A stretch of 64,000 nt of DNA from Copromyces sp. CBS 386.78 (Eukaryota > Ascomycota > Sordariomycetes > Sordariales > Sordariaceae). The stretch lies in the NCBI GenBank assembly GCA_030685235.1, contig MU839185.1:93541-157540 (forward strand). The letters run 5' to 3'. The notes under the pieces were generated by a model, which was not told the origin of the DNA, searched no databases, and was given only the letters and a program-made list of their open reading frames with translations. Both the position numbers and the translations under genes were made by a program. Shown piece by piece: positions 31,980 to 64,000 of the stretch. How positions within the stretch are numbered: the first letter of the stretch is position 1; each line of letters opens with the position of its first letter.

Positions 31980-34598
31980 TTAGGCAAGCGAGTTGCCCGG
32001 TCTATATACTTGCATACCGTCATCGTCCTGCCATGTCTTGAGCTCCTGCACAACCGTGGTGCCGTCTTCAGGCCTCACGTTTTGCAGCCAGCCTTGCACA
32101 TGACTAGGGTACGGCTTCGTGGGAGAGCCCGTAATCGGACCAGAGAGGGCCCCCGGTGTGGTCTCTCTGTTCACGGGGCTATGCACCGACCCGCTCTGCT
32201 GCTTCTCCGCGGGCACAGTCAGCTGCTCATGCTCCTTGCGGTGGATCACTTCGTGCAGCTTATCAACCAAGGGCTTCAGGTCGTTGAGGACGTTGTGACA
32301 GTCCTTCCCATAGTCACTGCCTGTCATCGCCTCGTTCTTGAACACCTCCTTCGCCTTGTCGATCAGGAACATGTCGTACACTCTTTGGTTGACAAAGAGG
32401 ATTTGGTGCATCAGAAGGATGATGGCGGCATTGAAGATGTGATGGAGGTCCTGCACAAGCAGCTTCTGGCCGGGGCTGATGATTTGTAGCCGCCTACCGA
32501 TGCGGAGGTTGCGCCGTGCGGCATCACTGCACTTGCGAATGGCTCTGGTCCAAGGGTTCTCCGGTTCCGCTCCAGGGCCCTCAAGCCCAGGTGTCAACCA
32601 AGTATTGGCCACCTTCTTCTTAACGGTGGTGAGGAACGCGGGGCGGATTGCCAAGATGATGAGCTAGAAACCGTTAGCTGTCTGTCCTGAACATCATGTG
32701 AGAGGTAAAAGCAGAGAGCATACCTGATTGTAAGCCATGTGCAGTGACAACAGAGCCCGGTCGGTACCGAGTGACGGGTCCTCGGCTTCGGGCTGGAGAG
32801 CATAGTAATAGTAGTTACTAGGACTCTCCTCCAAATTATCGAGCTTCAAGCTCTTGGGTAGGTTCTCGTGCCATTGGTCGAGCTTCCCAATCGCGACCGA
32901 GAAGGGCAGCTCATCGACCCCGTCAGCCGGCTTGTTCGCATGGTGACGATAGCTGTTGTTGACAATGTACGCGGAAATTTTGGAGAGCTCCACATGTGCA
33001 CATAGCCCGAGAGGCGAAGGAAGGCCGCTATGAGACAAACTATTAGGCCATGTACGGTGAAGGTACGGTGAAGGGTACAACTCACGGTGCTTCCTGTGGC
33101 AGGGACAGGGTAATGGCCTGATGAGGGACCGCGGGTGGGCGACCCATCAAGCAGCTCAGCCAGCTAAAAGGAACATGCATGTGTCAGCGAGTGGTTGGCT
33201 GGTTGACGCCTGGAGGCAGCACCGGTAGGTAAGGGGAACAATGGCAAAGGCATGGACTTACCGATCGATATTGTAAACCGTCCAGAAAGTCCTACGCTCG
33301 ATCTCGGTTACTGAACTTTCCCTGTGCACGCCGTGCATCACGCTAAGATGCATCGCGTTACTGATGGCCATGTAGGCGGCATCTCTGCGATTGTTCTCCA
33401 CCAGGTACAGGGCCATCAGGGCCAAAACGGCCACGTTGTAGATTGTGTAGGACGTCATGTCCAGGGGGTTTCCGATCAGCATCCTAGCCGCCGCATAGTG
33501 GGCTTCGCCCAATTGGCCATCCACCCGGGAATTCTCCTCGGTCAGGGTCAGCAGGTGGGTGAAGGCAAAGGCCGTGTAGACCAATGCCAGCTGGCCGTGC
33601 TCCCGAGCGGTGTGGTTCCGGGGCTTAGTGGTGTCCAGCTTGAAGCCAGTGCCAAACCCGGACTGATCCGGTAGCGCCATCTTGGCGGGGTCCTGGAATG
33701 GCCAGAAAAAAATGCCGCCGCACCCTGCCTTGCCGTTGTCGTCCTGGAGAAAGGTCTTGAACTGCGTAATCATGGCCTGGATTTCCAGCTGCGTGGGGAT
33801 GCGCGGCTCCACGTCCATGGCCGGGAGCAGGAGAGGACGGGAATCGAACGTCTGGTAGCGACCGACCGAATTGAGGAAGGTTGCATTCCTGCTGCCGTCG
33901 GGCGTGTCGGGATTGGGAGAGAGACCTTTGGAGGCTAGCGGCTGCGTCGTCTTGATGAAGGCCTTGAGCGAATCAAGGAAGGTGGCGCCGGAGGTTTCTC
34001 CTAGGTAGCGAGCGGTACCCTCGGCGTCGGCAAGCATTCTGCCGTCGTCGACGGGGTAGTCCATCTGCATCTCCGTGTCCTCGTCAAGGGGGGAGGCGGG
34101 CTCAAAGTTGTGGTTGTGGTAGTCGTAGTGCGAGGTCGTGGACGTGACCGAGCCTTCGGTAAGATAGGCATGGCCGGCGGCCCCTAGGCCATCTGACGCG
34201 TCGATGCTCATGCCGCCCTGCTCTCCTTCATGGACAGCCTGCAACGGCTCAAGCAAGCCGCGGAGCTCGATCTTGCTGTTGCCATTGCCATTGCCGCCGG
34301 CCTTGTTGGTGATGTGGAGCTGGCTCTCGTATTTGGCTATCTTGCCGAGCAGGTTGTCGATGAAGGTCTGGGGGACGGTAACCTTCTTAACGCCCTGGGG
34401 GTAGATGCACTGGCGCTGGGCCTGGGTACACTGGCGACACGGCTTTTCGCCGGAGCACTTGATGCGCTTGACATTGCAGTTGTTGCAGGCGAGGGCGACG
34501 CGCTTGCGCTGCTCGGGCGCGACCTTCTTCCTCCGCGGATTGACGGGTAAGCGAAAGTTGGGATCGTCGGCGCCCGAACTCTTGGACGACCTCGGCAT
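31980..34598 (-). CDS. Zn2Cys6 fungal transcription factor
   Basis: Four exons: 34598-33262, 33163-33086, 33027-32724 and 32663-31980, 800 residues. All introns are GT-AG and phases agree. The DNA-binding domain is complete, with cysteines at 38, 41, 48, 54, 57 and 64 (C-x2-C-x6-C-x5-C-x2-C-x6-C), preceded by a basic segment and followed by a linker and short coiled coil (FIDNLLGKIAKYESQL). The middle region is the fungal-specific transcription factor domain: YTAFAFTHLLTLTEEN, AARMLIGN, YMAISNAMHLSVMHGVHRES, RRTFWTVYNIDR, then WLSCLMGRPPAV across the first intron. This is the plan of Gal4/XlnR/AmyR-type regulators that bind CGG-containing sites in the nucleus. Target genes are unknown; the sugar transporter 6 kb away is a possible but untested one. 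Confidence 0.93.
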
Positions 34599-36349
34599 AT
34601 CTGAAGCCAGCTTGTCGGTGTGGTGTTGCTGTCACCCCTGTATCCCAAATGGTGCTCGCCTTGGGTTCTGGAAGGAGGAGGGGAAATGCCGAAAAGGTTG
34701 GCGAGAAGAGACGGTAGGTGAGGGACGGTAAGATGATGAGGCGATTGGGATCACACTGGCACCCGGCCACACTTTCCATCTGGCAGTGTGCGTCAATATA
34801 GCCTTGGTTCTTGCCAGTGCCGCGTCGTCCGTCCGCTTCACCTCCTGTCGACGGCGAGGATGGTGATGATGATGATGATGATGATGATCAGTCGGTCAGA
34901 GTCACCGCAAGAGTTGGTTTGTCAAAGGGTGAGTGAGGTGTGAGTGAGAGCCCGAGTGTCGGCGTCGGCCGGCGTCAATGAGCGATATGAGGTGAGGTGA
35001 GGCCGAGGTTATGTCGATGACTGCACACAACGAAGGACTAGTTGCTGACAGCACGGCTCCCCCTCTTGACCGACCGGTGTGGTCCGTGGTCGCGATGGTG
35101 GTGGCACGTCCAGACGGGCGTCAGGTCGTGTCGTGGGGGGAGGAAGGAGGGTGATGAGTTGGGTGAAGCTGAAAAGAAGTAAGGTAGGTTGTACTGAGGG
35201 AAGAGTGAGAGGAGAGAGTGGAAGAAAGAAGTGAAGAGAGAAGATTGGAAAGAGGTGGGGGGGCGAGGAAGGTGAAATGGAAAGATGAGAAGACGACAAG
35301 ACCGAAAGACGGCGGCAAGTGTGAATGCACGCCCAAGTCACTCACTCCCTCACTCCCAGAAGAAAACAAAACGGGAAGGAGAAAACGGGGACAACGGGGG
35401 TCAGTGGTTAGGGTTCGTCATCCACAACGGGCAGCAACGACGGAGACGGGACAACGGGGCAAGGAAGGAAGGAAGCAGCAACCTAGGTGAGGTGTAGCCG
35501 CCGGAGGAGAAGTGGAATCGAGATGGACGTCGGTCGCTGGTGCTGGACTTGAGAAGAACATGGAACCGAACCTCGTGCTCACCAAGGTCCCATCAACGCC
35601 GGCCACACAACGCACATGGAAGAAAAGGAAGGAGTCGGCGACAAGCGGCGGCTGATAATTAAGCTAGAGGTGGTCGACTTTGAGGTTCCGCACTGGCATC
35701 GGTGTCAGTACCCGTCCGTGGATTTGTACCCGCGACCGCGCCGGCCACTCCATGCGCTGTTGGCGGATTCGGATTGCGTGGTGCGAGGATTGGAGGGAGG
35801 GATTTGTGGTGCGGAGGGGAGTGGATGGGACAGACTGTGCCACGCCGACAGGGGAATGAATATTTGATTTGCAAGCTAACCCTAGGTAAGTAGGTACTCG
35901 GTGGTAGCAGTCTTGGTGGCAGGCAAGTCCGTGCCGGGGCCTGAGAGGGCTTACCAGGGGCCGCCAGGGCTCGGTGGGCACGCGCCCAGGGCATGCACGC
36001 GGGTGGGGGGGAAGACAGCCCGCTAACCCAAGTTACATCTGCAGTGGAGGTAGAGCATGTCTTTGGTACTGTATCCGGAAAAGGAGTCCGTGCGCAGGCA
36101 TTTCCCATCTTTCCTCCCACTGGACCCGACTGGATACAGCGGCCACGGGGCAGTGGCACAGATGCCCGTCGACTGGGCAATGGAAGTGTGGGCGTGGAGG
36201 AAGGAAGGTGAGGCAAGCTAGCAAGGGCGGTCAGGTACTGCAACTTCCTTTTTTTTTTTTTTTTCCCTCTGTTTTACAGCTCAGGGCATCGCTTCATCGA
36301 TTGATCGGCTGCAACCTTATTTTAGAACTCAGACCTCTTTTTTAAGCAG
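34599..36349. other. Promoter of the Zn2Cys6 gene and flank of the AT-rich block
   Basis: No supported gene in 1.75 kb. Features are a (TGA)n microsatellite at about 34863-34890, purine-rich runs at 35150-35300 (typical of promoter DNA on the minus strand) and a poly-T tract near 36250-36265. Short frames on both strands overlap and lack domains. Confidence 0.55.
34863..34890. repeat. (GAT)n microsatellite
   Basis: About nine GAT/TGA trinucleotide units upstream of the Zn2Cys6 gene. Confidence 0.9.
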
Positions 36350-36430
36350 GGGGCGACCTGCGGCCGCCAAGAATTAGGCCTGCGGCCCGTACGCTTCGCG
36401 CACATCTAGCCAGTACGCTGCGCGCACTAA
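36350..36430. repeat. GC-rich border of the AT-rich block
   Basis: A short GC-rich patch (GCGACCTGCGGCCGCC, and two copies of GTACGCTKCGCGCAC at about 36388-36402 and 36413-36427) sits exactly where base composition changes. A closely related TACGCTGCGCGTA word occurs inside the gypsy element near 44660-44673 on the other strand. It may be the surviving end of a repeat. Confidence 0.45.
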
Positions 36431-36959
36431 GTTTCTCAATTAAAAGTTTCTAAAATTTTCAAAGTTTCCAGATTGTAGTCCGTATATCATTTCTTTTAAT
36501 ATATTTGACGGTATTAATTAAGAACGCCTAAAAAAGAAGTCTAAATTCCCAATTAAATAATATACGGCTAGATATTTTTATATCGATAAGCCTACCGAGG
36601 ACTCTCTACAATAATAAAATAATATAATACTTTTTAATAATATAAAACACATACTAAAAATAGCCTCAACGAAACGAATCTAATAATATAATTAATTTTT
36701 TTATAAAAGCAATTTCAAAATTAATTCTAATTACAAACGTAAAAAAATTACGTATTTTCATTTTCTAGATCTACATATTACAATACCACTTTTTATCCCA
36801 ACTTTTTAAAATTTTATAAATATAGCCGTAATAGTAATTTAATAACCCAGACTAGTTCTTATAATTTCGTAATACGTTATTATTTTTCCCTAATTTAATA
36901 TTATTATTAATAATACTATAGAAGACAACGACGCCCCCCTCGATATTCAACGCATACTA

Positions 36960-37648
36960 AAAGTAATAAAAAATATTATCGGAAGTAGACAACTTCGTAA
37001 AGGTTAAATCCGGGCAATCGTAAAACTAATAATTAAGCAAAAGGATATAATACTAGTAACTGCGATAAAATATAGTAAAAGTATCGTACTTTATATCTTT
37101 TCAACCTTACGCGACAAAATTATAATATAAATTATACCCCTTACGAAATTAGGGGAAAATTAACGTAATAATATTACGGCTAAGCTACTAAATTCTAAAT
37201 TAATATAAATAAATAAGGACGTAATATTTAAAGTAACTAATTTATTAAATCCTTTTTTTATAATAGTTTACTAACTTACTTTTATACAATAGAATAAGAA
37301 TATTTAAAACTAAATCTAATAAGGCACTTATACCTATATACTTTTAAACCTTAAATTCGCAATTAGCGTTAAATTTAAGACCGTATTAAAATTACTAAAA
37401 TTCTACGAAAAAATTGGTCTTTTTACTATCAACAAATTATATTACGTATTAAAATAGTATAATTTCCGGAAAGAATTTCAATATCTATATACCTTACGCC
37501 CTCTTCTTCTTAATTGTATCCCTTAATTCGGCTATACAGCAACGCTTACTAGGATTTACAAAGATTTTATTATTAAAAAGGCCGGTTTTAATACTAAGAA
37601 TTTTAAAATTATTAGAATATCCGTAAATAGGCTAAAGATCTCTATTAT
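36960..37648 (+). pseudogene. RecQ-family helicase pseudogene, N-terminal helicase lobe
   Basis: In one plus-strand frame, RecQ motifs can be read in order despite point mutations. A motif I (Walker A) region (37040-37083) reads DIILVTAIKYSKS where the family has TGxGKS; the changes are mostly transitions. Then come IPLTKLGEN, a decayed DExH box near 37428-37450 (INKLYYVL for DE.H..L), F..KEFQYL, and motif III GYTATLT at about 37529-37552. The frame stops exactly at the gypsy insertion (37649) and continues in phase after it. The start of the gene is not visible. The order and spacing fit fungal RecQ-like helicases, including those found near telomeres in several fungi. Confidence 0.75.
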
Positions 37649-37869
37649 TACAGGGATAATACCGTTGGGGGTATAGTTAGATATACGTAGTTGTACGAGG
37701 AAGGAAAGAAGGAGGAGGGAGGAGTGCGGTCTAGATATAGGGTAGGCTGTACCGTGCCCTAGATCCGGGACCGAGGTCTATTGGTGCGTGTATGCGGTCT
37801 TATTAGCTAATAGCTAATAGATTCGACTATGTAATACCTAGTACTATTATAGGTAATCCTATGATATTA
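37649..37869 (-). repeat. Left LTR (3' LTR of the minus-strand element)
   Basis: Begins TACAGGGATAATACCG and ends ATGATATTA on the plus strand. It aligns end to end with the right LTR, and differences are almost all transitions. Ends fit TG...CA after RIP-type change. Confidence 0.92.
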
Positions 37870-39204
37870 CTTCCTTGTAAAAGAAGTTTATAGAGTTTTA
37901 AACAATCTATTTAGTATATATATATAAAATGATAGAATTTTGCTTCAATTTCAATCCCCGTTTTCCAATTCCTTAATCTGTAATTTAACGCCTATAATCT
38001 GTAACCGAATATTATTATTACCCTACTAGTAGGTTCTAGCTTTTAATTATACTTCTACGTTCTTTATTAGGGGCCGCTTTCTTTATTAGACTTCCGCTAA
38101 TTTCCTAAATACTTTGTAAAAGAATTCGTTTATCTTTTTTAAATTTTCTTCGGATAAAGGTTCGAACTTTCGGCTTACTAACTCGATTATAGCTTCCTAT
38201 GCTTTACGGCCTACCGCGATATTTACTACGGCGGCGTTAATTTGCTCTTTTAAATCGGTAATGCGTTTAGAATATTTTAGGGGCGGGGTTAGAGATAACG
38301 CTGTATAGCGTGTTTAGGGTACGGGCGATATTATATAGCGTATTTAGGATATTAAGGCCCTTTGTTTTGGGGTTGGGGTCTGCTCTTAAAGTATGGCCTT
38401 AATTTCTAGCTAGCTTTGAACTACTAGCAGGATAGGGGTATTGAGGTAATTGCGGTAAAATACGATAATAGAGTCCTTTATTCTTTTAATATTGTTAAAG
38501 GGTTCGTCGGTAGGATTATAATATTTCTATTTTATAGTATAGAATTAGTAACGGTTACTTCTTCGTTAGAAATAGTTTAAAAATTTATTAAATTCTTATT
38601 CCGCTACTTCCTTATAATTATTTATTTTAATTATAATTCTACTTTTATTAGTTCGTATGTTGTTTTATAGGTTGGTTTAGCTAGGGAAGCCTTTATAGTA
38701 AAACTTTATTATAGAGACGTAAAATATTGGCGAATATTTTATATTAGTAGATAAAATTGATTTAACGTTATAGGATTATATTTAATCTATTTTAAAAGGG
38801 CCTTCCTATTGTAGGGATAATTTGTTATATAGTTTGCCGTTATTGAAATTAATCGTATTAAGTAAAACGAAATCCTTAATATAATATTTCAGTATATTAG
38901 ATTAGTTTTCGTTAGTATTAGCCTCGTACCGGTTTTGTATTTTTTTTATAGAAATACGTATATAGTTTTAAATGGCTTCGAAACGAACGAATAGTTTATT
39001 GGCTTTTATATACTCCTTTTACTATATTAATAAGAAATTTTTTAATAGTACGACCGTTGTAGGTTCGATGCTTATACGGGGGTAGAAATTGTAATTAGTA
39101 AAGAAGGGGGTTATATTTATAATTAATAATACTATATTATTTTTTATAAATTCTATTAGTAGTAGCTATTATATTAAGTCCGTTTATACTTATTTTATTT
39201 CTAT

Positions 39205-39258
39205 ATTAATACGCTCTATTTAGGCGTTAGTCTACGGGTAGAAAGCGGAATTTAATAG
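39205..39258 (-). pseudogene. Integrase core fragment of the gypsy element
   Basis: Minus-strand translation gives LNSAFYP-stop-TNA-stop-IER, the mutated form of the conserved integrase segment LSxAFHPQTDGQTER. Both stops are at Gln codons and Asp has become Asn, as RIP produces. Confidence 0.85.
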
Positions 39259-40679
39259 TTTTTTAATAGTTAAACGTTTATAAATTATAAATTAGAATAA
39301 GGATATAAATTAGGTACTATAGTCGGAAACGACGGTATTAAGTAAATTGTAAAGGGTATAAATATAGTCAATAAAATAGTTTATTAATTTTTCTACTTCT
39401 ATAATAATAGTCGGGTTATAGTAATATATTTTTATTAAACGGTCTACGATAATAGTAATATATTTGAATTTCTAACTTAAATAAAGGCTTTTCGGTAAAG
39501 GGGAAACGTAATCGACCGATATATTAGTCTATAGTATGTAAATTACTAGTATAGGTTTAAAGTAGTTTGCTTTAGCTCGTTGTAATACCTTCGTTTTAGA
39601 ATATATTAGGTATCCTTTATAATAAGCTTTAATAGCTTCCGCTATACTTAATTAATATTAATAATCGTTTATTTATATTTATATTTTGTCTCTTCCTAAA
39701 TAGCCGGCCGTTAATAATAAATAAGCGTAGTAAATTAATAATAAATAGGTAGCGGCATTATTAGGGTTAATAAGTACCCTCCCTTTATAATAAGTTTTAC
39801 CTCCCGTTGTAAAATATTCGGCGAAAGCGACTTTAAACTTTTTTTTAATATAAGGGCGATATTTAGTACGATTTAAATCCTTTAAGTAATTAACAGCTTC
39901 TCATATTAAAGTTAATTAATTGTAATTTTCGTTAATAATATTATTAGTTAATTTGTCCGGCTCTTTTAAGGTATTTAGCGATAATAAGAATATTTCTTCG
40001 TTAAAATTGAAGTCGCTAATAATTATAGTTGATAGGATAAGGTAATTTTCTTTAAAGTGGGCGGGGTTAATGAATTTACGGTTTTTTATCTTTAAACGAT
40101 AATTATTTATATTTAGAAGTATATTTTCTAATTTCCTATTTAATCTATTGGGGCGAAGATTTTATAATCCTAGTATATAGAGGATTGAGAAATTGAATTA
40201 TAATAAAAATTGTAATTATTATATATAGTAGGGTATAAGTTATTTATTTGTTATAAAGGTCTTTAAATTCTTATAATCTATAATAATATTAAATAGTTGT
40301 TGGGCGCTTTCTAATTTTAAGCGCTATTCCTCTAGGGTTTTAATAATAGCGAAGAACTCTTTATTATAAATATTATAATTGTATTCCGCTATTGAGTACT
40401 ATACTAAAAAGTATGTAATTAAGTAGAATTCGCTATTATCTTTATATTGGGAAAGGGTACTTCTAGAAGCTTAGTTCGAAGTATTAGTTTTTACGACTAT
40501 TTTTCTAGACTAGTTATAAATTTATAGGGTTAGTCTACTAATAAACGTAGCTTTTAAAGTATTAAAAGTAAATTATTATATTGTAGTCTATTTCTATTCC
40601 GCATTTTTTTTCGTAAGGTCGTATAATAGTATTACTATTGTCGAAAATCCTTTAATAAAATAGCAATAAAAGTTAGTAA

Positions 40680-41290
40680 ACCCTAAGAAACTTTGTAAAA
40701 AGATTTTCAATATTAGGGGTTATTAATTTATAATAGTTTTAATTTTCGTTAGATTTATTTCGATATTATTTAATATAATAATTAGTTTAAAATATTTAGT
40801 TTTCTTAGTGTAAAATTTATATTTATTAATATTAATTTATAGGTTAGCTTTCTTTAAGCGGGTAAGAATATTATTTATATATTTCTAATATTCTTCTTCG
40901 TTATTTAAAAAGATGAGGATATTATTTAGGTAAGCGGTTATATAAATATTTAAAATATTGTATAAAATATTATTAATATAGTTTTAGAATGCGTTAAATA
41001 TTTTTTATAGGCTGAATAGATAGATAAGTAATTTAAATAGATTAAAGCGGGTAATAAACGCTATTAATTATTTATATCCTTCTATAATACGAATACGGTT
41101 AAAAGCGGCGATAATATTTAATTTAATAAAAAAATTTATTTTATAAATAGCGTTAAAAGTTTCTTTAATTAAGGGGAGCGGGTAGCGGCTTTTGAAAATA
41201 ATGTTATTAATCCCCTTATAATTTATATAAATTTTAATATTTCCATTTAATTTTTATACTAATAGGATTTAGGAAGCGGCTTTTAATTGC
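40680..41290 (-). pseudogene. Reverse transcriptase region of the gypsy element
   Basis: Reading the minus strand: INYKGINN...KSRYPLPLI (41165-41260), then downstream TAYLNNILIFLNNEEEY (about 40885-40938) and ILTRLKKANL. These correspond to the gypsy RT motifs VDYRGLN, RYPLPLI and YLDDILIFS. The catalytic Asp pair is changed to Asn-Asn. Confidence 0.9.
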
Positions 41291-44200
41291 GAAGGACGGA
41301 TAAACCTATTATAGAAATTCTCGTCGATCTATTTTTTAATTATATTTAATTCGTTAGGGTTAAACGCTTTTAATTTTATATAGGGCGCTTATTTTCCTGG
41401 GCGGAATTCGATCTTAAAATTATAAGAGCGGTAGGGGGGTAAGACCGTTATATTACGAAGTTTAAAAACGTTAAAATAATTTTAATATTATTTAAGAATT
41501 TTTTTTTAATTTGGGCGTCGGTTTTAGGCGGCTTATCGGCTTTTTCGTAAAATTTAGTTATATTTTCCTCTATAATATTGGCAACGAATTTAATAGTTTT
41601 ATAATATTTGAAATCCTTGTCCGCGTTATTATTAAAGTAGACGTATTTAGCGATCTTTATTATTCGGATAGTAATTTTAAATCCTTTGCTAGCATAAGTA
41701 TTAATTTATAGGTAGTAATACTTATTTAGTAATTTCTTATACTTAGTATTATTATTATCCTAGATTTTTTATTTTATTTTTAGGGTAAAGTTCGCTAAAT
41801 TATTAAGTATATTATAATTATAATCGTACTTAATTCTTATCTTTACCTTTTTATTAACGACGCTTTTATTATTTTTATATTCTTTAGGCTCTAGGGCGCC
41901 CCCTTTTACTTTTTTAGCCCGGGCTTCCTCTTTTGCTTTAATTTCTTCTAAAATTTTATAAAGTTCTACGTATAAAATATAGAATATTCGTAAATAATAT
42001 TTTTTATATAGTTAATTGAAATTGGCGGCCGTTATATCCTTAATATTTATAGGGTTAATTAGTTCGTTCGAAAAGTACGTTTTACGTATTATAATACAGT
42101 AGTAGGGGTTGGATTTTTATTGGCCGGCAATAGTGCGGTAAATAGTAGGTTTAGTCCGTTTAGGAGTTTTAATAATAATATCCGCAATTAGGGCAGGATT
42201 TAGGATAGTATCGTCTTTAATAGTATTGGGAGCGGGGTTTGTAATTAGGGTATTAAGGTCAATTACTTTAATTATACTTTATATAATTTTGTAATAATGT
42301 ATATAAGTATACTTTTAGACTTTAAGTGCGTATTGTAAAAAGGGTGAAAGGTTAGCGGGAAAGTAGCAGTCTATATAGCAATTAATAAAGGTAACGGTAC
42401 TATTTAACTATAATATTATAAGGTTGTAAAATTTGAATTATAATATACTTAAAATAACGGGATAATTGTTAGCTAGGTCGTAGGCTAGTATAGCGATTAT
42501 TTTTATATAATAACCGATTTATAGTTAGATTTTATAATAATAAGTAATAAAGTCCTTAAATATATTATTTACTAGGTATAAAGCCTTTAATTTAGGGAGT
42601 TTTAATAATAGGATAGTATAGTAGGCGGTAAAACCGCGATCGATAAAAGCGAGAGCGGAGCATTTATTATTAATTAGAATAGTATATTTATTTTATTAAT
42701 TATATAGTTTATAAATAAGTTAAGTAGAAAAGAAGATAAAATTATTATTATAGTTATTTAAATTTAAATTTTTAAATTAAATTATTTTTAAGTTTATTAG
42801 ATTATTTACCTCTTTTTTTATTATTATTATAGACGATAGCTTTTATAAGCGATTTAATAGAGAGGTAGTATATTTCCCGCGTTATATTCTATAAGTTAAG
42901 TAGGAGTTAGAGCGGGGGGTATAGCGGAAACGGCGGGTTTATTAGTAGTAATAGCGTTAATACGAACGCTATTATTACCGTTATTGCTATAGCTAGTCTA
43001 GTTTATAGTAGGTTTACTACGGTTGTTATTGCCTCTTTTAATATAATAATTACGACGCTTATACTCCTTTTACTTTTTAGGGATACCGGTATTAATATTA
43101 TTATAATATTCGTAAATATAGTAGCTAATTTAGGTATAGTATTTATAAAGTTTATTCTTTATATAGTAATTAATAACCGCTTTATTAATTATATAAAATA
43201 ATTGAATATTAATAGCGTTTATAACGTCGAAATTTATAGTAGTACTACTTTAATTAATAGTACGTTCGGGGGTAATAGTATTACTGGTATTAGTAGTACT
43301 GTTCTTAAAGTAAATATTAGTCTTATTGCGCTAATTACGCTCTTTTAAATTGGTAGCGAACTTATAATAGAAAGTGAATTATCCGTCGAAATCGTTATAG
43401 GTCGGAGTATTTTGCTAATAAGTAATAGTATTATAAATTTCGTTTATAATTTTTATTTTTAAGTAATATATTTTTATAGTATCGTCGAAGTTGTATTTAT
43501 TAATGATAATAATAAATTTATCTTTGAAATCGAATTATTTAATACTTTTAAATATTTTAAAGGATTCGAAATCCCAACGTACTTCGAAGGTAAAATTTAT
43601 ACGATTATACTTCGTATTACGGTATTCGAAGAGGGTTTTTATATTTATTTACTTTTATTTTATTAGGTCTACCTTTTTAATAATAAGTATTATATAGGGG
43701 GCTAAAATCCTAAAAATATTATTGCCGAAGTATAAAAAGATTTAAACGAATTTATAATACTTATTTTAATCGAATTATTAAACGTTTTAAAATTAATAAA
43801 ATTAGATTTTATTTTTCTAATTTTAAAAAACTTCAGCTTTTTTAACGGTAGAAGTATTTTCGCCAGTATAGGCGGTAGGGTCTTTACTAATACGGGATTT
43901 AAGAGTAGTTATTTCTTCGTTATTAGAATTAGGGGCGGGGACGGAAGCGAATATAGTAATTTTATTGCGAATAGCTTTTTTAAAGGCTTTAATTTGGGTT
44001 TTAACGGTTTTTTTAAATTTAATATTAGTTTTATTAATTATAATAAAGTTATTATAGAACTATTAAACCTCTTATTAAAAGTTAATAAACTCTTGCTAAA
44101 AATTGGTAATAATACTTTCTTAATTAGCGATTTATTAATAGGCGGTTTTAAAGGAATTTTAAACGGCGCTAGCGAATGTATTAATTTAAATTAAATCTAT

Positions 44201-44694
44201 ATAAATTAATTAAATAAGAGTAATAATAACGTAAGGAAAAGTAGTATATTAGGCGAATTTAAAAGTAGTATTAAAGATTTCCTTTGCGATTAAATTACTT
44301 AGGTATTAGAGAGCGGTATTATTAAGGGTTTCTATAACGTTTTCGAAGAGTTATTCGTATTTAAAATTGATAATAGCGTTAATTATAGAGATAGCAACGT
44401 CAAAATTAGTAATAGGGGCTACTATTTAAATAGTTATAATTAATATTTATTATTTTATAGCGTAAGTATTTATTTATTACTTTATAGCGTAAATAGTATT
44501 CGTTAATTACTTTATAGCGATAAAAAAGAGGTTTATTGTAATACGACGAAAGAAAGGTATATTGCGGTATAATAAGAGAGAAGTGTATTGCGGTACGACG
44601 AAATTGTAGGTTCGTCGGAAATATTTACGACGGCGGCGATAAATTTATTTTGAGGTGTATACGCGCAGCGTAATAGTAAGGTACAATTAATTAT

Positions 44695-44915
44695 TATAGG
44701 GACAATACCGTTGGGGGTATAGTTGGATATATGTAGTTGTATGAGGAAGGAAAGAAGGAGGAGGGAGGAGTGCGGTTTGGATATAGGGTAGGTTGTACTA
44801 TACTTTAGATCCGGGACCGAGGTCTATTAGTGCGTATATGCGGTCCTATTGGCTAATAGCTAATGGACTCGACTATGTAGTACCTACTACTATTATAGGT
44901 AATCTTGTGATATCT
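44695..44915 (-). repeat. Right LTR (5' LTR of the minus-strand element)
   Basis: Begins TATAGGGACAATACCG and ends GTGATATCT on the plus strand. Same length (221 bp) as the left copy. Relative to an inferred common sequence each copy carries its own C/T or G/A changes. Confidence 0.92.
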
Positions 44916-46560
44916 ATTATTATTTAATTATTTCTTTAAAATTATATCGGGGATTTTCGTCGTCTATTTTTTCTTATAGAGGGATTTAAACTAGTAATTA
45001 AATAGGATATCCCAAAAACTATTATTTATATTAATAACTGTAATAGTCTAACTATAGCAAAAAATACTATTATTAACTACTTATATACGTAGGATTTTAA
45101 TAAGGAAATAGGCTGTAAAATTGTTAAAGTATATAATTCTTTAATCCGTCCAACGGATAAAAATATTATATATAAAGACTTTACTTTTAAATTAATCGAC
45201 TATTGTATATATTTAATTACTATATCCTTAAGTATAAGTATAAATCTTTTTAACGTTATTCGAATAATTCAATTTAGAATGCTTCCTACCCCTAATATCC
45301 CTAATATTTGGCAGCGTTTTAAAAGAGCAATATAAAAACCGAAGGATAATAATTTATAGGGGAAGGCTTGCTTTTTTATACCATACTAAGTATTTAACTA
45401 TTTCGGCTCTAATAAAAAGCAGCCTAAAAAGAGATAGTAATAGTAATAATAATAACGTTTCTGCCAATTATATATTCTAAAGGTACTAAATAGGCTAATA
45501 AATAGTATTATATTAGCAAATAAAGAAAATAATACCGATACTAATACCGATAATAACGAGGATAACAATAATAAAGCGGTAGAAGAATATAGTAATAAAC
45601 TATTACCAAATACTAAAAAGTAGCACTCATTATATAAATTCGAATATAAAGTTAAATAGTCAAAGCTTAATAAGAAGGCTCGTACTAAATATTAAAAAAA
45701 GGACCTACTTTTTATAAAATTTCTTAATACGCTTTATTTTTAGAAAGCTATTCTTAATTACCTTTAAGAACTACCTAACGATAATTTCGAATATAAATAG
45801 CCGGTCCCCGTTAATAAATATTATAATAGAGGTAATTATATACTATTACTTAAAAGGATTCTAATAATATTAGAACGTAACCGGAATAAAGTATTTAATA
45901 ATCCGTTAACCGGATTATTAGCAAATAAAATAATATTATATATTAATAATTAATATAAAGAAAAGGTACAAGAATTCGTCCTAGAAATAAATCGAAGCTT
46001 TAAAATTATACCAAAAATACTAATACTAATCCAACTACAATATACAATCGCCCGCCTTTTTACCAATAATATAAATATTTATCGTAATAAAGTACTTCCT
46101 TTTTCAAACGTTAATAGGCTAGAAGAGAAATTCCCTACTATATAATAATAAAAGTATAAAAAGGATTATTTTAAAAATCTTATTAAATTTTATCTTTTAT
46201 TGGTTAATAAAATTTATAAAAATTAGAATAAAAAATATCCTCGACCTCCGCTATACTAAACCGCCTATATATAACCTTAATTACGTAATAATAACCTTAT
46301 AACTCCTACTCGCCCTACTTCTCTTTTAGCTAATATATTAAATCGTATTACTATTACTACTTCAATTACTCCTTAATTAGAAGCTAGAGAACCTCCGCAT
46401 TCTTTAATAATACTGGAAGAGCAAAAAGCAGAATAAGAAGCAAAGCACGACGACGAAAATAAAGTTCAAAATAAAGTAGGGCTAATCGAAAATCCGTTAA
46501 TACTATAACAATATTAAAAAGCAAATCTATTAATACTACAACGGTAATAATAATAAGTAA
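44916..46560 (+). pseudogene. RecQ-family helicase pseudogene, C-terminal helicase lobe
   Basis: Continues the 36960-37648 reading in the same frame once the retrotransposon and one ATTAT copy are removed. Motifs of helicase lobe 2 appear in order: IPKTIIYINNCNSLTIAKN (motif IV, about 45010-45080), YNSLIRP, INLFNVIRIIQF (motif V, for G.N.P.V..VIQ, near 45240-45280), and WQRFKRA (motif VI, for WQR.GRA, 45308-45330). A downstream coding-like stretch (around 45960-46140: EFVLEINRSFK, IARLFTN) extends to the decay limit. There are numerous in-frame stops, mostly at Trp/Gln/Arg codons. No function can remain. Confidence 0.75.
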
Positions 46561-49500
46561 GATAAGAGGAAATTAATTATATATTAATAGAATTTACCAA
46601 ATTTTTACCAACGACTCCCCAACGTAATCCAATGCAAATTATTTATAATAATAGACCGCCATCGCCTTTTATTACTCTTATATAATAATATAGTAATTAA
46701 AAACTTATATTATAAGGACGAGGAAATTTATAAATAATTATAATAGATTTACTAAAAGGGCGAATAACTATTGAAATAACTTAAGTATTACTATTAACTA
46801 ATAGGGGAAAGGGAAAGAAAAAATAGAGTAAAATTCTAATTACTAAATTACTAATTTATAAAAGGTAATTTAAAATATACGTAAATATATATATAAAATT
46901 AATTTTATATAAATATTTAACAACTTAAGTATTCACACTTCCTCCAAAAAACGCCGAAATATCTATTGAAAATAATAATAATCTCCGAAAAACGCCGAAA
47001 TATCTATCGAGAGTAATAATAGGATCCGGAATTAAATTCGTATTTACCTACTTATTATTATTATTATAAATATCCTTAACGCCGTTAATAATTAAATCCT
47101 AAAAATCCTCCGCTCCTTCTTAAAATAAATGCCCGCCCTTATTATTATAATTAATAATACTATTTTAAATAGCGAATTTAATTATACTAAGAAAATATTT
47201 TTAATTAATAATGTTTACTAGAAGAAGAATAACCTTATTCCACTCTACCAACTTTTTTAATAAATTCTATTACCCTAAAAAGTAAATATCTAGAATATTA
47301 AATATATTTACTTATACTTCGCTAAATAACTTCGACTTTCGCTTAATCATATTATTATTATACAATTTAAAAATATAAGAAATAATATTTGTATACGGAT
47401 TACTAATAATATAAATACTTCTAATAATATATTCCTATAATCTTTCCGCCCCTTTTCGAATAATAATAAAAATATTAGAATTAAAAGTAAATTATATAAA
47501 TGTAACCTCAATATTGTAAATGGAATTCTTATTATTTTTAATATCAATAATATATATTCTATTCTAATATTCCAATATTAAATTAATAGGCTTATAGCCA
47601 CTTCCAACAGTAATTAAACGAATTAAACTACCTTTAAAAATAATATTTCGAAGAATGTCGTTTATAATATCTTCGTAAAGAAGCTATATAAAATAGAACA
47701 TCTCTAAGCCGTAGTTCCATAACCTTCTACCCTAAAAAATAATAGGTAAAATAAAAACAATATTTCAAAGAAAGCTATAATCTCCTACTCAAATTACTTT
47801 GTAAATTAATAATAAGATTAATACTATCTATATTAACCTACAATAGCTACGAAATTCGATATCGATATCGATTTTAAAAATTGAGGCTAAAATAAATCTT
47901 AATTCTAATATAGGTCCCTCCCTACCAATATTAATATTAACATTACTATCTTTATAAATATAAATATCTTCATTTAAATATTCTCCAATCCAGCCCTATA
48001 TAGAAAATACTATATCCTAAATATAATCGAACATCTATTATATAATTTACTCTCCAAATTCTTTATTAAGCAACGTCTTTATTATTAACTTAATACTATC
48101 GACGGTAAAATCCTATAGATTTCTATACTTAACCAGCTCACTAATAAAAAAAGTAAGTACTTTCACTATAAAACTATATATAATAAGAAATATAGTTTAA
48201 TAGTATTTAATCTTTTCCTTCTTAATATTCTTTAAACGCTAGAAGAAAAAAACGTTAAAAGAAATAATTATTATAGAAAAAGCTATATTTTTTTTACTAT
48301 CCTAAAAATACTAGAAAAATATTTCAATAAAATTAATTTTAATATAGAAGAAAATAGGGATAAGAAATATCCATTTCCTTTACTCCTACTATTCACTAAC
48401 TTTAATTTCGTAATATTGAATACGCTTAATAAAAAATATTATCTTTTAATCACTATAAATAAAGATTAAATAGTAAATTAGTTCGAACTTATTAAATATA
48501 AGACGATTATTCTATAATTCTTCGTAAATATAGTAAATTCCTTCGAATTTTCCTTTATTTTTATAAATAACTCTAATTTAGAAGTTTAGTAATTCTATAT
48601 ATTTTACCCGCTTACTAATAGGAAAAATTAGTAATATTTTCTTCGCTACGGCGTTATTAATCGTATAATAAAATAATAATTTGAAAATAAAATTTATAAA
48701 CTAATATATAACAACGTTCGTATTTTTACGCCTAAGAAAAATATAATTTACTACTATTTTCTAAGTGAATTTTTTAGTCCTATTAAAAGAAGACTAGAGA
48801 AGGAGGCTATATAATTCTAGGTTTAATACTAAATTAGCCGTTGTAAAATTGACTATTTAATTTTATTTTGCTCCTACTAATTTACGAACGGTATTTTTAA
48901 AATTAAAATTATTATATATAATAATACCGTTAGGGTTATAAACTACTCATTTAAAATTACATTTAATTTAACCAATTATAATATTGAATAATCTATTAAA
49001 TATTATATATAATAATATAATGCCTATACTAAACAAGGTCTAAATAGACCGCCTAAATATCCCTATCGAAAGAAAATAAAGACTAAGAACCCAGCGAAGG
49101 AAAGTACTAGTTTTTTCAATATAACTAAATATTAAAATACCTACAATAAAAATAATACGGCTATAATAATCTTTATTAACTTCAATTTTCTCAATTATAT
49201 TTAATAATTTAAAGTAATTAATTATAAGCTATAAAATTATAGTAACTAGATTGGGTACAATCGATTTAAAAAATAGCCAAATTTACTTTAGAATACTTTC
49301 TAATTAAAATAAGCTACTCAATTTGGTAATAATAATTAGTTCATTACTTTAATAAATATTCTCAACTTTAAATTAGCTAAAAGATAGTTTAGTAAGAAGG
49401 TTTTATATCTCTTTATATAAAATAAAAATATAATAGTTTAGACTGGGTAAATTAATTTTAATAATAAAATTATTCCTATAAAAAATTTTATTTATTTCAT

Positions 49501-50150
49501 TATCTTTGTTAAAGAAATTAGCGAAATTTATACTTTTACGAAGATCTCTTAACTATTCTCCTATAAAAACTTTTATATTGAATTACCGGGGTTCGATAAC
49601 CCTATTATTCCTTATTATTCTATTTATATAATTAATATACTTTAAGCGGAAGCGTTTCCAAAGTTCTACGGTCTCTTTAATAATCTTATAATTATTATCC
49701 TTATAAATATCGTTTTCAAAGTCTAAATTAGGATTAAGAGTAAGAGCAAGAATGGGAATAGGAGCGGGAGTAGCGGATTAAAACTTATTTAATTATATTA
49801 ATCGTCGTCGTCGAAGGATATTTTACTTTAATTATAATTTATATTATTCTTCGTTTTATAAATATTCTAGCGGTTAATTAATAAAAAGTATAATAAATAA
49901 ATTAGAGGACTTATTAACGGCTAAAAATATATAATAATAGGCGGGTTAAAAAAAATATTAATATAATTAAAGAAATAACTACGCGGGGAAACTATAAATA
50001 AATTGCGCGTTATTATTTTAGGAATTACCCTCTATATTTAGGAGTACGAAAAAAGTACCGTTCGATAAATCTCGTTTAAGCGATTACAAATCTACTAAAA
50101 TTATTGTAATACAATGTATTGTAATGAAGTTATAGTATTAATATTAATAT
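46560..50150 (+). other. Unidentified decayed repeat, partly coding-like
   Basis: AT-rich remainder of the island. In one plus-strand frame from about 47.6 to 48.9 kb, long stretches read without frame change and with amino-acid composition like protein (for example KKYPFPLLLLFTNFNFVILNTL and RIFTPKKNIIYYYFLSEFF), broken by RIP-type stops. I could not match it to a retrotransposon, transposase or helicase. From 49 to 50.15 kb nothing recognisable. 50100-50150 is the right edge. Confidence 0.5.
46940..47021 (+). repeat. Tandem duplication, about 41 bp, two copies
   Basis: The unit CTCCRAAAAACGCCGAAATA, followed by TCTATYGARARTAATAATA, occurs twice in succession, differing only by transitions. 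Confidence 0.75.
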
Positions 50151-51779
50151 TGAGGGTGGTTTTATAAACATCTACACAGTTCAGATCCAATTGTGCACTT
50201 AGACCTCCTTGAGCGGAGGGCCCAAATATTGCCCAAAAAGGAATTTAAAATCAATTTATCGATAAAATATTAAATGTGTGGTAACGGAAACAGTGCACGG
50301 GCCCGGGAGCTCAAGGTGGTCTGAGCGCTGAGATAACTGCAACCCGCGACTTTCCTTCTCCTTTCGCTTCTTTTTGCTCTGCAACCAACAAGACATGCCT
50401 GGAACAAGAGAATTGTGTTATCTTCAACGCCTGACGGGCCCGGAAACAAGGGAAAGAATAGGCCCGGGCTTGATATTGGCCCCTTGTGCTACCACAACTC
50501 GGTCCTCGCAGCAGCCTGTTCTTGCCTGCTCGTGCCGGTTCAGTCTCATGCATCAATCAGCCTTCACCGAAATGCAGCATTTGCCCCGACGGCATGGGGG
50601 AAACCTAAGCACCCAATGGACTGATACCCGATTGCTTCCCGACTCCTCTCCGTTCTCTCCAAAAAGCAGCCCCGTTGACCCCATGTTTGGTCAATTTCAT
50701 GGTCACAATTGTGATGGTCGTCCAGGCAGCTTGCCAGGCTTGTTCATTGCTTACCTGGGTGCTTGCTTGCAAACGAGCAGAGACTGCCAATCATCAATCA
50801 GCCCGCATCTCCCATGACAAGTCACTTGTCAATCGACAATCGCTCCTGCTTCAAACGTGGTGAGGTGAGCTAGTGTCGTGTAAAATGATGGAAGGAGGGG
50901 AAACATTTTGCTTGGATTGGGGGAAGGATGGGACCGGGAGCCACTCACTGCTTCTGGCCGACCGTGACCTACCGTGACAAGCGCAGCCGCGAGACCGGCG
51001 AAGGAAGCTAGCCCCAGAAGGGTTAGATCAGCCTGTGCCAAATTCAAGGATACAGCAACCGACAAACCGAACGGCGGCGTCCATTGCTGTTGCTGACAAT
51101 GGAACCAGGCCAGTCGACAAGACAGCGACAGGCACAGGGCAATGCGAGCACACAACCGGTGGGATGAAAAGGTGACCGGCCGGCTCATGGCTTCCATGTC
51201 GTCAGCACAGCAAGCACCAGCATACATAGCTCTCTACAAGCAAGCGCTGCCCGGGTGTGGTTTAGATACCATATTCCCCAGACTCGGCAACAACGAATAG
51301 CGGCAGGGACAACGAAGAAACAGTAGGGACATGGTACCCCGAGGTCAAAGAGGATGGACACCTTCCACTCACCTCTACAACCCAAGACAATCCTCCGCCC
51401 TTTCATCACCCACCAAGAGAATCATAGGCCCTGGGACGGGCGGTGTGTCTACAGTGTCTACCAACAAGTCCAGTCTCCGAGGTGTACACTCGATGCGAGC
51501 CAGAACAGACGACGCCGGGACGCAACATGAATGTGCCAAAGTGGGGGGCTGGCCGCGTAGCATTGGGACCAATTCACATCCAGTCTAGAATCCCAGGATT
51601 CGGGAACTCGGTCAGGAAGATCCACGGGAAACCCACCAAACACCAACGCCAACTAGGTACTTCCTGGTCCTTGCATTCAAAGGCTGCCATCGTTGATACC
51701 CAATCTGTGTCTTTGTTGCTCGGTCTTGAGGACGACGTACCCGAACCATCACTGACCACCGTTTTTACTGTACCCTGGC
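50151..51779. other. Intergenic, right flank of the AT-rich block
   Basis: Base composition returns to normal at about 50150-50280. No supported gene. A 132-codon minus frame at 50829-51227 has hydrophobic stretches but no start context or domain. It holds the 3' region of the MFS gene. Confidence 0.5.
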
Positions 51780-63150: not shown

Positions 63151-63377
63151 CTATGTTCACTTCTCTAGTATTCCTTTCCTCCCGTCCTCGTATTTTCTAA
63201 CCTTGTGGCTATAATTCCTGTCCTCGCATCCGTCGCTGCTTCTATGTACGACTATATAAAGGAGAGAAATTGATATAAACGAATTATGAAAGAACTACAA
63301 CCCTATAGCCAAGAACGGGGCCGCCTCCGCTTGGTTCATCTTGTTCCCTATTTGGCAACAAACTTCGCACACTTAGG

Positions 63378-63625
63378 GGGTAATCGGTAGCCTAGATTTT
63401 AGTTGACCGCTAACTTAGGTTAGCCGCGGTTAGCAACGCGATCGTTTAGTTTTTTAGAACTCGATATACCTTTTTCGAGTTACTAACCCGGGTTAGCAAA
63501 ATCCCCCCACATTTGGTCTTGCAACCAACTACATTGCTCGCATCCTGTTGACCTAGGTCAGCAGCAAAAAGCTGCTTTTTTGATAATATTCCAATTGCTA
63601 ATACTACTAAGAGGGTGATCGGTAG
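63378..63625 (+). repeat. Direct repeat of GTRATCGGTAGCC words
   Basis: GGGGGTAATCGGTAGCC (about 63377-63393) and GAGGGTGATCGGTAGCC (about 63611-63627) are near-identical and are both followed by TTAGCTAAC/GTTAGC-like words. They suggest a duplicated subtelomeric unit of about 230 bp. Confidence 0.55.
63511..63611 (+). repeat. Left arm of subtelomeric inverted repeat
   Basis: About 100 bp whose reverse complement recurs at 63799-63900. Shared blocks include ATTGCTCGCATCCT, GCAAAAAGC and CTAATACTACTAA. By eye it is about 80% identical, mostly transitions. Confidence 0.85.
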
Positions 63626-63798
63626 CCTTTTTTTTGCTAACTGCGGTCAGAAAAAGGTACTTCAGATAAAAAAGTCGTACGGGCCTTTGCATTTTTGGTT
63701 GCTAAGTCTTTAGCGTAGATTGCCGGTTAGAATAGTGATTTTTTGGTTATTATTCTAATATTAAAATATTTTAGTTGCGATACTCTATATTATAGTGG

Positions 63799-63900
63799 CT
63801 TTAGTAGTATTAGTAGTCGGAATGTTATTAAAAAAGTAGCTTTTTGCTACTAATCCAAGTTAGTAGGATGCGAGCAATTTGGTTAGTTACATAGCCAAAT
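63799..63900 (-). repeat. Right arm of subtelomeric inverted repeat, next to telomere
   Basis: Reverse complement of the left arm. It ends with CCAAAT only 8 bp before the first TTAGGG unit. The two arms bound a segment of about 390 bp that could fold as a long hairpin or be a small inverted-repeat element. Confidence 0.85.
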
Positions 63901-63908
63901 ATAAGGGG

Positions 63909-64000
63909 TTAGGGTTAGGGTTAGGGTTAGGGTTAGGGTTAGGGTTAGGGTTAGGGTTAGGGTTAGGGTTAGGGTTAGGGTTAGGGTTAGGGTTAGGGTT
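63909..64000 (+). repeat. Telomere, (TTAGGG)n
   Basis: About 15 perfect TTAGGG units running to the window edge, in the orientation expected for the right end of a chromosome (G-rich strand 5' to 3' toward the end). TTAGGG is the repeat of Neurospora and many filamentous ascomycetes. Confidence 0.98.

Follow-up and report, generated by a model that had tools for sequence, protein, structure and literature searches.

The window examined here, a 64,000-nucleotide stretch of the genome of Copromyces sp. CBS 386.78 (G000:C107:93541-157540), is the terminal part of a contig of 157,540 bases, within an assembly of 49.8 Mb and 273 contigs. Its GC content drops from about 0.5-0.6 to 0.21-0.33 in an island at about 36.3-50.1 kb. 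This island holds a damaged RecQ-like helicase gene, interrupted by a gypsy-type long terminal repeat (LTR) retrotransposon, and a damaged gene of the DUF6589 family (PF20231), all enclosed by inverted ends and an 8-bp target duplication (Table 1). We found that the unit so bounded, window 36317-50336, is larger than the helicase and gypsy element first described in an earlier note on this DNA, and that it measures 6,748 bp after removal of the gypsy element and its extra ATTAT.

Table 1. Features of the island, in window positions.
Feature	Position	Strand	Basis and remarks
Left 8-bp target duplication, CTGCAACC	36309..36316		Identical to 50337-50344
Left inverted end, TTATTTTAGAACTCAGACCTC in the window; other copies begin TTATCTCAG	36317..36337	+	Common start in 9/9 compared copies, flanks differ
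RecQ-like helicase, N-terminal half, damaged (motifs I-III)	36852..37643	+	Motifs, copy alignment, WRN profile matches; start codon approximate
Putative intron, 60 nt, GT..TACTAAC..TAG	37233..37292	+	Other copies shift frame here and show similar signals
Gypsy-type LTR retrotransposon, 7,267 bp, inside the helicase gene	37649..44915	-	LTR repeat, reverse transcriptase and RNase H matches, empty site in 8/8 copies
RecQ-like helicase, C-terminal half, damaged (motifs IV-VI and C-terminal extension)	44921..46870	+	Motifs, copy alignment; end approximate
DUF6589 (PF20231) gene, damaged, convergent with the helicase	47225..50293	-	PF20231 and P0039 matches, one minus frame over 1,050 aligned residues; ends approximate
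Right inverted end, ...CTGAGATAA	50316..50336	-	End comparison between copies
Right 8-bp target duplication, CTGCAACC	50337..50344		Identical to the left copy

Ends and target duplications

Comparison between copies in the same genome places the boundaries of the unit. In eight assembled copies the left flank starts at window 36314-36317, and the inverted ends (TTATCTCAGaaCTCAGACCtC on the left in less damaged copies, TTATCTCAGcgCTCAGACCaC on the right) are alike at 18 of 21 positions. Target duplications are present in all nine copies for which both ends were read; C48 was excluded from this count because its fetched stretch contains no right end. Six duplications are perfect over 8 bp, each sequence occurring twice (window, CTGCAACC; C175, CACTTTAC; C2, CCCATCGT; C87, GTTCGTTC; C5, GGTTTGGC; C85, CACTGACC), and two differ between left and right by one transition (C27, CACAATCA/CACAGTCA; C64, CAAAACCC/TAAAACCC). 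The ninth, in C24 (CATTTTCTT twice), has nine letters, or eight if one T is counted as an addition to the left end. With its inverted ends, target duplications, dispersed copies and differing flanks, the unit has the features of a DNA transposon with terminal inverted repeats (TIRs).

The first ~110 bases of the element are GC-rich and well conserved between copies. They include short palindromes (window 36350-36430; e.g., GTACGCTTCGCGCAC and GGCCTGCGGCC), which are possible transposase-binding sites. A 41-bp tandem pair lies at window 46942-47023, between the convergent gene ends. Outside the island, a telomere array at 63906-64000 closes the window, and short GTTAGC-like words are repeated just inside it (63300-63905; e.g., CTAACTTAGGTTAGC and AACCCGGGTTAGC). 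A plasmid search with the stretch neighbouring the island on the left (34000-36300) returned no match.

The two genes, their decay and the gypsy insertion

Plus-strand frames at 36852-37643 and from 44907 contain damaged RecQ motifs in the correct order, as the earlier note had proposed for the two sides of the gypsy element. Taken by itself, the window sequence does not raise this assignment above chance: when its flanks were translated with X at stops, as the damaged copies were for Pfam, profile and motif work, the sole Pfam match at E <= 10 was DUF4484 (E 0.15), not a helicase. The identity was rescued because less damaged copies in the same genome match where the window flanks fail. In DNA searches of the genome the right flank found 13 matches and the left flank 18, each total including the window itself. 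The RecQ motifs are clearer in the X-stopped copies than in the window, and in two of them, at C5:157340-157675 and C48:286070-286390, the match to Helicase_C of Pfam exceeds its cut-off even though stops interrupt the frame. Moreover, a profile built from four X-stopped copies, of the nine fetched, matched 13 distinct sequences of the PDB at E <= 0.01, every one of them WRN (best E 6.6e-6). The predicted helicase core, of superfamily 2, is thus closest to RecQ proteins. As such, the earlier assignment stands through the copies, not through the window flanks. A putative intron of 60 nt, including a TACTAAC branch site, falls in the left half, and most copies switch frame at that point.

When 7,995 candidate public proteins were scored against the same four-copy profile, a single one reached E <= 1e-5: P0001, from Lasiosphaeria ovina, with E 3.7e-101. 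A search with P0001 returned 36 proteins including itself, from Achaetomium, Chaetomium, Xylaria, Daldinia, Diatrype, Histoplasma and metagenomes, among others; we take the named relatives of the RecQ and DUF6589 proteins to be mostly Sordariomycetes. Three of five intact RecQ relatives that were scanned exceed both the DEAD and the Helicase_C cut-offs, and two of the five show a RecQ zinc-binding match, in both cases sub-threshold (P0010, E 0.0043; P0013, E 0.0052).

For the partner gene, PF20231 matches the window copy directly (C107:141020-141412, 28.7 bits against a cut-off of 27) as well as four of four aligned copies (best E 1.6e-29), and a six-frame Pfam scan of the right half of C24 found DUF6589 on the minus strand (E 5.9e-29). 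In the window, a single minus frame extends across 1,050 aligned columns, from 50293 down to 47288, with 56% identity to the C24 copy. Public relatives at E <= 0.001 numbered three (P0037, P0038 and P0039) among 7,998 scored candidates, and scans of viral contigs with P0039 and P0002 found no relatives. The conserved D, E, H and C residues of DUF6589 become N, K, Y and Y in the damaged rows, as repeat-induced point mutation (RIP) predicts. D65, D210 and E469 of P0037 occupy conserved acidic positions, save for D to N changes, and are possible candidates, purely by hypothesis, for a DDE catalytic triad.

The decay of the island has the same signature. TpA/ApT is 1.22-1.38 in three island pieces versus 0.60-0.71 in two flanking parts of the window, and (CpA+TpG)/(ApC+GpT) is 0.29-0.45 versus 1.16-1.23. 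Across eight aligned helicase regions (the window and seven copies, with C85 left out), 1,313 two-state columns are transitions and 275 are transversions. Transition-biased decay, raised TpA/ApT and a lowered substrate index together mark a RIP-mutated repeat. The simplest picture of RIP does not account for everything, however, since C/T-variable sites mostly lie in contexts other than CpA (CT 1967, CG 1155, CC 871, CA 712), though of the 1,529 invariant C only 74 lie in CpA, fewer than in any other context. The earlier note had called the helicase dead from RIP and repeated in the genome, and both statements are borne out, the first by this RIP-like signature and the second by the flank matches given above and by the 51 RecQ loci described below.

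The gypsy element has ATTAT on both sides (37644-37648 and 44916-44920). On its minus strand (the plus frames were left unscanned), Pfam matched RNase H with two models above cut-off and reverse transcriptase with 26.2 bits, below the cut-off of 29.6; the LTRs differ by 23 transitions and 2 transversions. In eight assembled copies (C27, C2, C175, C24, C5, C87, C48 and C85) both helicase flanks are adjacent, and the window flanks, once joined without the gypsy element, align to all eight with no gap at the junction, each copy having an uninterrupted empty site. Copies lacking the element, which the earlier note had proposed to look for, are therefore found in the same genome, and its description of a 7,267-bp insertion with ATTAT and a preserved frame is confirmed. 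A gene still open at the moment of insertion, as the note also claimed, is not implied by this. RIP causes substitutions, not frameshifts, so the unbroken frame over the junction cannot date the death of the gene. A genome search with the gypsy element gave at least 28 matches (19 of 781 first-look candidates were scored), several of them near full length, so that it is a repeated family in its own right.

RecQ-DUF6589 pairs across the genome

To count both genes genome-wide, we merged matches to P0003 (RecQ) and P0039 (DUF6589), with three PF20231 matches added by hand, into 51 loci of RecQ and 48 of DUF6589. Of the former, 36 have their nearest DUF6589 neighbour within 45 kb, and the two are convergent in all 36 cases; random orientation would give convergence in 1 in 4 per pair. 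On sequence match and spacing, we sorted the 36 pairs into 16 of the window family and 20 of a second family. The two families measure about 6.8 and 18.7 kb and have different ends.

In the second family, the intergenic gap is 13.1 to 15.3 kb in 13 of the 20 pairs, and in the roughly 14 kb between the two genes no Pfam match was found. Two of its copies, C67 (C67:175290-194017) and C90, align over 18.7 kb with 84.6% identity, starting with TAGTCT and ending with AGACTA. Both carry 8-bp duplications (GTCGCCCT twice in C90; GTTACGGC/GTCACGGC in C67). A six-frame Pfam scan of 20 kb around C67 at E <= 0.05 found only Helicase_C and DUF6589, although decay may hide other genes. The large-family copy at C51 has a wider gap between its RecQ and DUF6589 genes because a relative of the gypsy element (C51:103107-110400) is inserted there. 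A further gypsy relative lies within the RecQ-DUF6589 interval C27:429340-471704.

The pairing may extend to other fungi. In Diatrype stigma, the DUF6589 relative P0038 and the RecQ relative P0010 are on contigs of equal size (406,399), and P0037 and the RecQ relative P0013 share source, contig number and size (2 contigs, 4,000). The equal sizes suggest that RecQ and DUF6589 are on the same contig in both cases.

Interpretation and comparison with known systems

Altogether, these results indicate that window 36317-50336 is very probably a TIR DNA transposon copy, now dead, with two genes, one for a RecQ-like helicase and one for a DUF6589 protein, the proposed transposase. Since the two genes form a TIR element with a constant convergent pairing, DUF6589 is the likely transposase. 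The helicase gene reads inward from the left end and the DUF6589 gene inward from the right. The DUF6589 protein would bind the inverted ends, cut the target with an 8-bp stagger and join the element to it, leaving 8-bp duplications. The element's own RecQ might help, for instance by opening the ends or by aiding the copying or repair of an intermediate, and movement could proceed by excision or by copying. Later, RIP mutated the copies, and in the window copy the helicase gene received the gypsy element.

Several observations weigh against this interpretation. No partner accompanies 15 of the 51 RecQ loci (of which two are free of stops and may be host helicases) or 12 of the 48 DUF6589 loci, and P0039 is without a RecQ relative on an equal-sized contig. 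No excision or movement has been observed. For DUF6589 itself, no transposase fold has been demonstrated: the PDB gave no match at E <= 1, Pfam at E <= 1 gave P0037-P0039 no known transposase family (only DUF6589 and a weak zinc-finger match), and AlphaFold models were unusable, with a mean predicted local distance difference test score of 35.1 for P0039 (7 sequences) and 37.7 for P0037 (9 sequences).

The alternative that survives best concerns classification and is compatible with a RecQ-DUF6589 transposon. The element may belong to a known superfamily listed in Repbase (AcademH, Zisupton/KDZ, hAT, P or another), with DUF6589 as its transposase under another name. We consider this quite possible, if somewhat short of an even chance. 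AcademH and KolobokH both encode a helicase, of RecQ type in the latter, 8-bp duplications are reported for Zisupton and usually for hAT, and the C24 duplication, if read as 9 bp, falls inside the AcademH range. On the other side, the TTAA of Kolobok is not seen here, eight of nine copies fit 8 bp and not 9-10, and DUF6589 alone, among transposase candidates, is matched by P0037-P0039 in Pfam at E <= 1. Pfam holds a KDZ model, and the lack of any Pfam transposase family in these three proteins at E <= 1 argues against a KDZ-type transposase, while leaving room for weak or distant kinship.

It is unlikely that RecQ and DUF6589 are both passengers of a transposase that went unrecognised. The missing catalytic fold of DUF6589 would be consistent with this, as would the ~14 kb between the genes of the 18.7-kb family, where damage may hide others. 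However, the same pair recurs in the same orientation in two families with different ends, the small family offers little space for a third gene, and the scan around C67 found no other domain.

The earlier note had linked the helicase, by inference, to telomere-linked helicase genes. On this reading it would belong to a subtelomeric host family spread by recombination between chromosome ends. The note was right about the position of the window copy, which lies 13.6 kb from the telomere array. Within 30 kb of a detected telomere there are three of the 51 RecQ loci (C107, which is the window, C64 and C170); these may be more than an even spread predicts. Subtelomeric RecQ repeats, moreover, have been reported in other fungi in the accounts cited below. 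In all three near elements the helicase reads towards the telomere, a suggestive pattern but one seen in only three cases. Telomere arrays of at least 72 bp were found at 11 contig ends, and telomere-near copies may be undercounted because many contig ends lack an array, which makes the count a lower bound. Nevertheless, 48 of the 51 RecQ loci are not within 30 kb of a detected telomere, and of 10 window-family copies with known contig-end distances, 8 lie at least 33 kb from either end, C64 and the window being the remaining two. The telomere reading fails because the helicase belongs to a TIR transposon with target duplications and a constant partner gene, DUF6589, and because its copies are dispersed. 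We therefore regard a telomere-linked family as very improbable, and the dead helicase is probably not a telomere gene.

Two further candidates are rejected. Joint movement of the transposon with the gypsy element is dismissed because all eight other aligned copies lack gypsy at the site. A Helitron is dismissed because such elements carry a Pif1-type helicase and not a RecQ-like one. Nor do the ends fit: here they are inverted repeats bordered by duplications, and Helitrons have neither TIRs nor target duplications (PMC4522978).

We compared the RecQ-DUF6589 transposon with known systems by their descriptions (duplication size and gene content) and by Pfam. A full-text search confined to an open-access library gave nothing relevant on DUF6589, PF20231 or IPR046496. 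In the sources cited here, the nearest known helicase transposons are KolobokH and AcademH. KolobokH comprises fungal Kolobok DNA transposons that likewise encode a RecQ helicase (PMC9587614), but with a TTAA duplication in place of the 8-bp duplications of varied sequence seen here. In the present elements, moreover, the helicase has a gene of its own, which lies on the opposite strand and converges with its partner. AcademH comprises Academ DNA transposons with a helicase, in Ascomycota among others, and is described as making 9- or 10-bp duplications (PMC10045372, PMC10799480). It is set apart by that description from the present elements, in which eight of nine small-family copies and both large copies have 8 bp and C24 can be read as 9. 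Zisupton elements, within KDZ, share the 8-bp duplications and in some lineages also have an accessory enzyme gene, although this gene is TET/JBP and not RecQ (PMC12730594).

More broadly, the RecQ-DUF6589 elements might form a distinct fungal DNA transposon superfamily, whose members measure between less than 7 kb and almost 19 kb and have DUF6589 as their own type of transposase and a helicase as constant partner. Part of the scattered or subtelomeric RecQ expansions of fungi would then be remains of such elements instead of telomere-maintenance genes. We put this forward tentatively and lean against it on balance. Our results suggest a testable function, as the transposase of a helicase-carrying transposon, for a family that has had none assigned. 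What helicases do in transposition could also be well studied in an element of two genes in which the helicase is a fixed partner.

Subtelomeric RecQ repeats themselves have been described for X26 of Stagonospora nodorum, Colletotrichum higginsianum, Zymoseptoria and Agaricus (PMC3017866, PMC5576322, PMC4522978, PMC7473861). They resemble the present elements as repeated RecQ-like helicases, and X26 is also RIP-degraded and was earlier called a transposon remnant; the telomere-linked helicases of C. higginsianum are reported to have the same orientation relative to the telomere. Those repeats are reported as bound to chromosome ends, whereas the loci studied here are mostly away from detected telomeres. 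The comparison carries a caution, namely, that repeated RecQ-like genes in the neighbourhood of fungal telomeres do not have to be genes of telomere maintenance.

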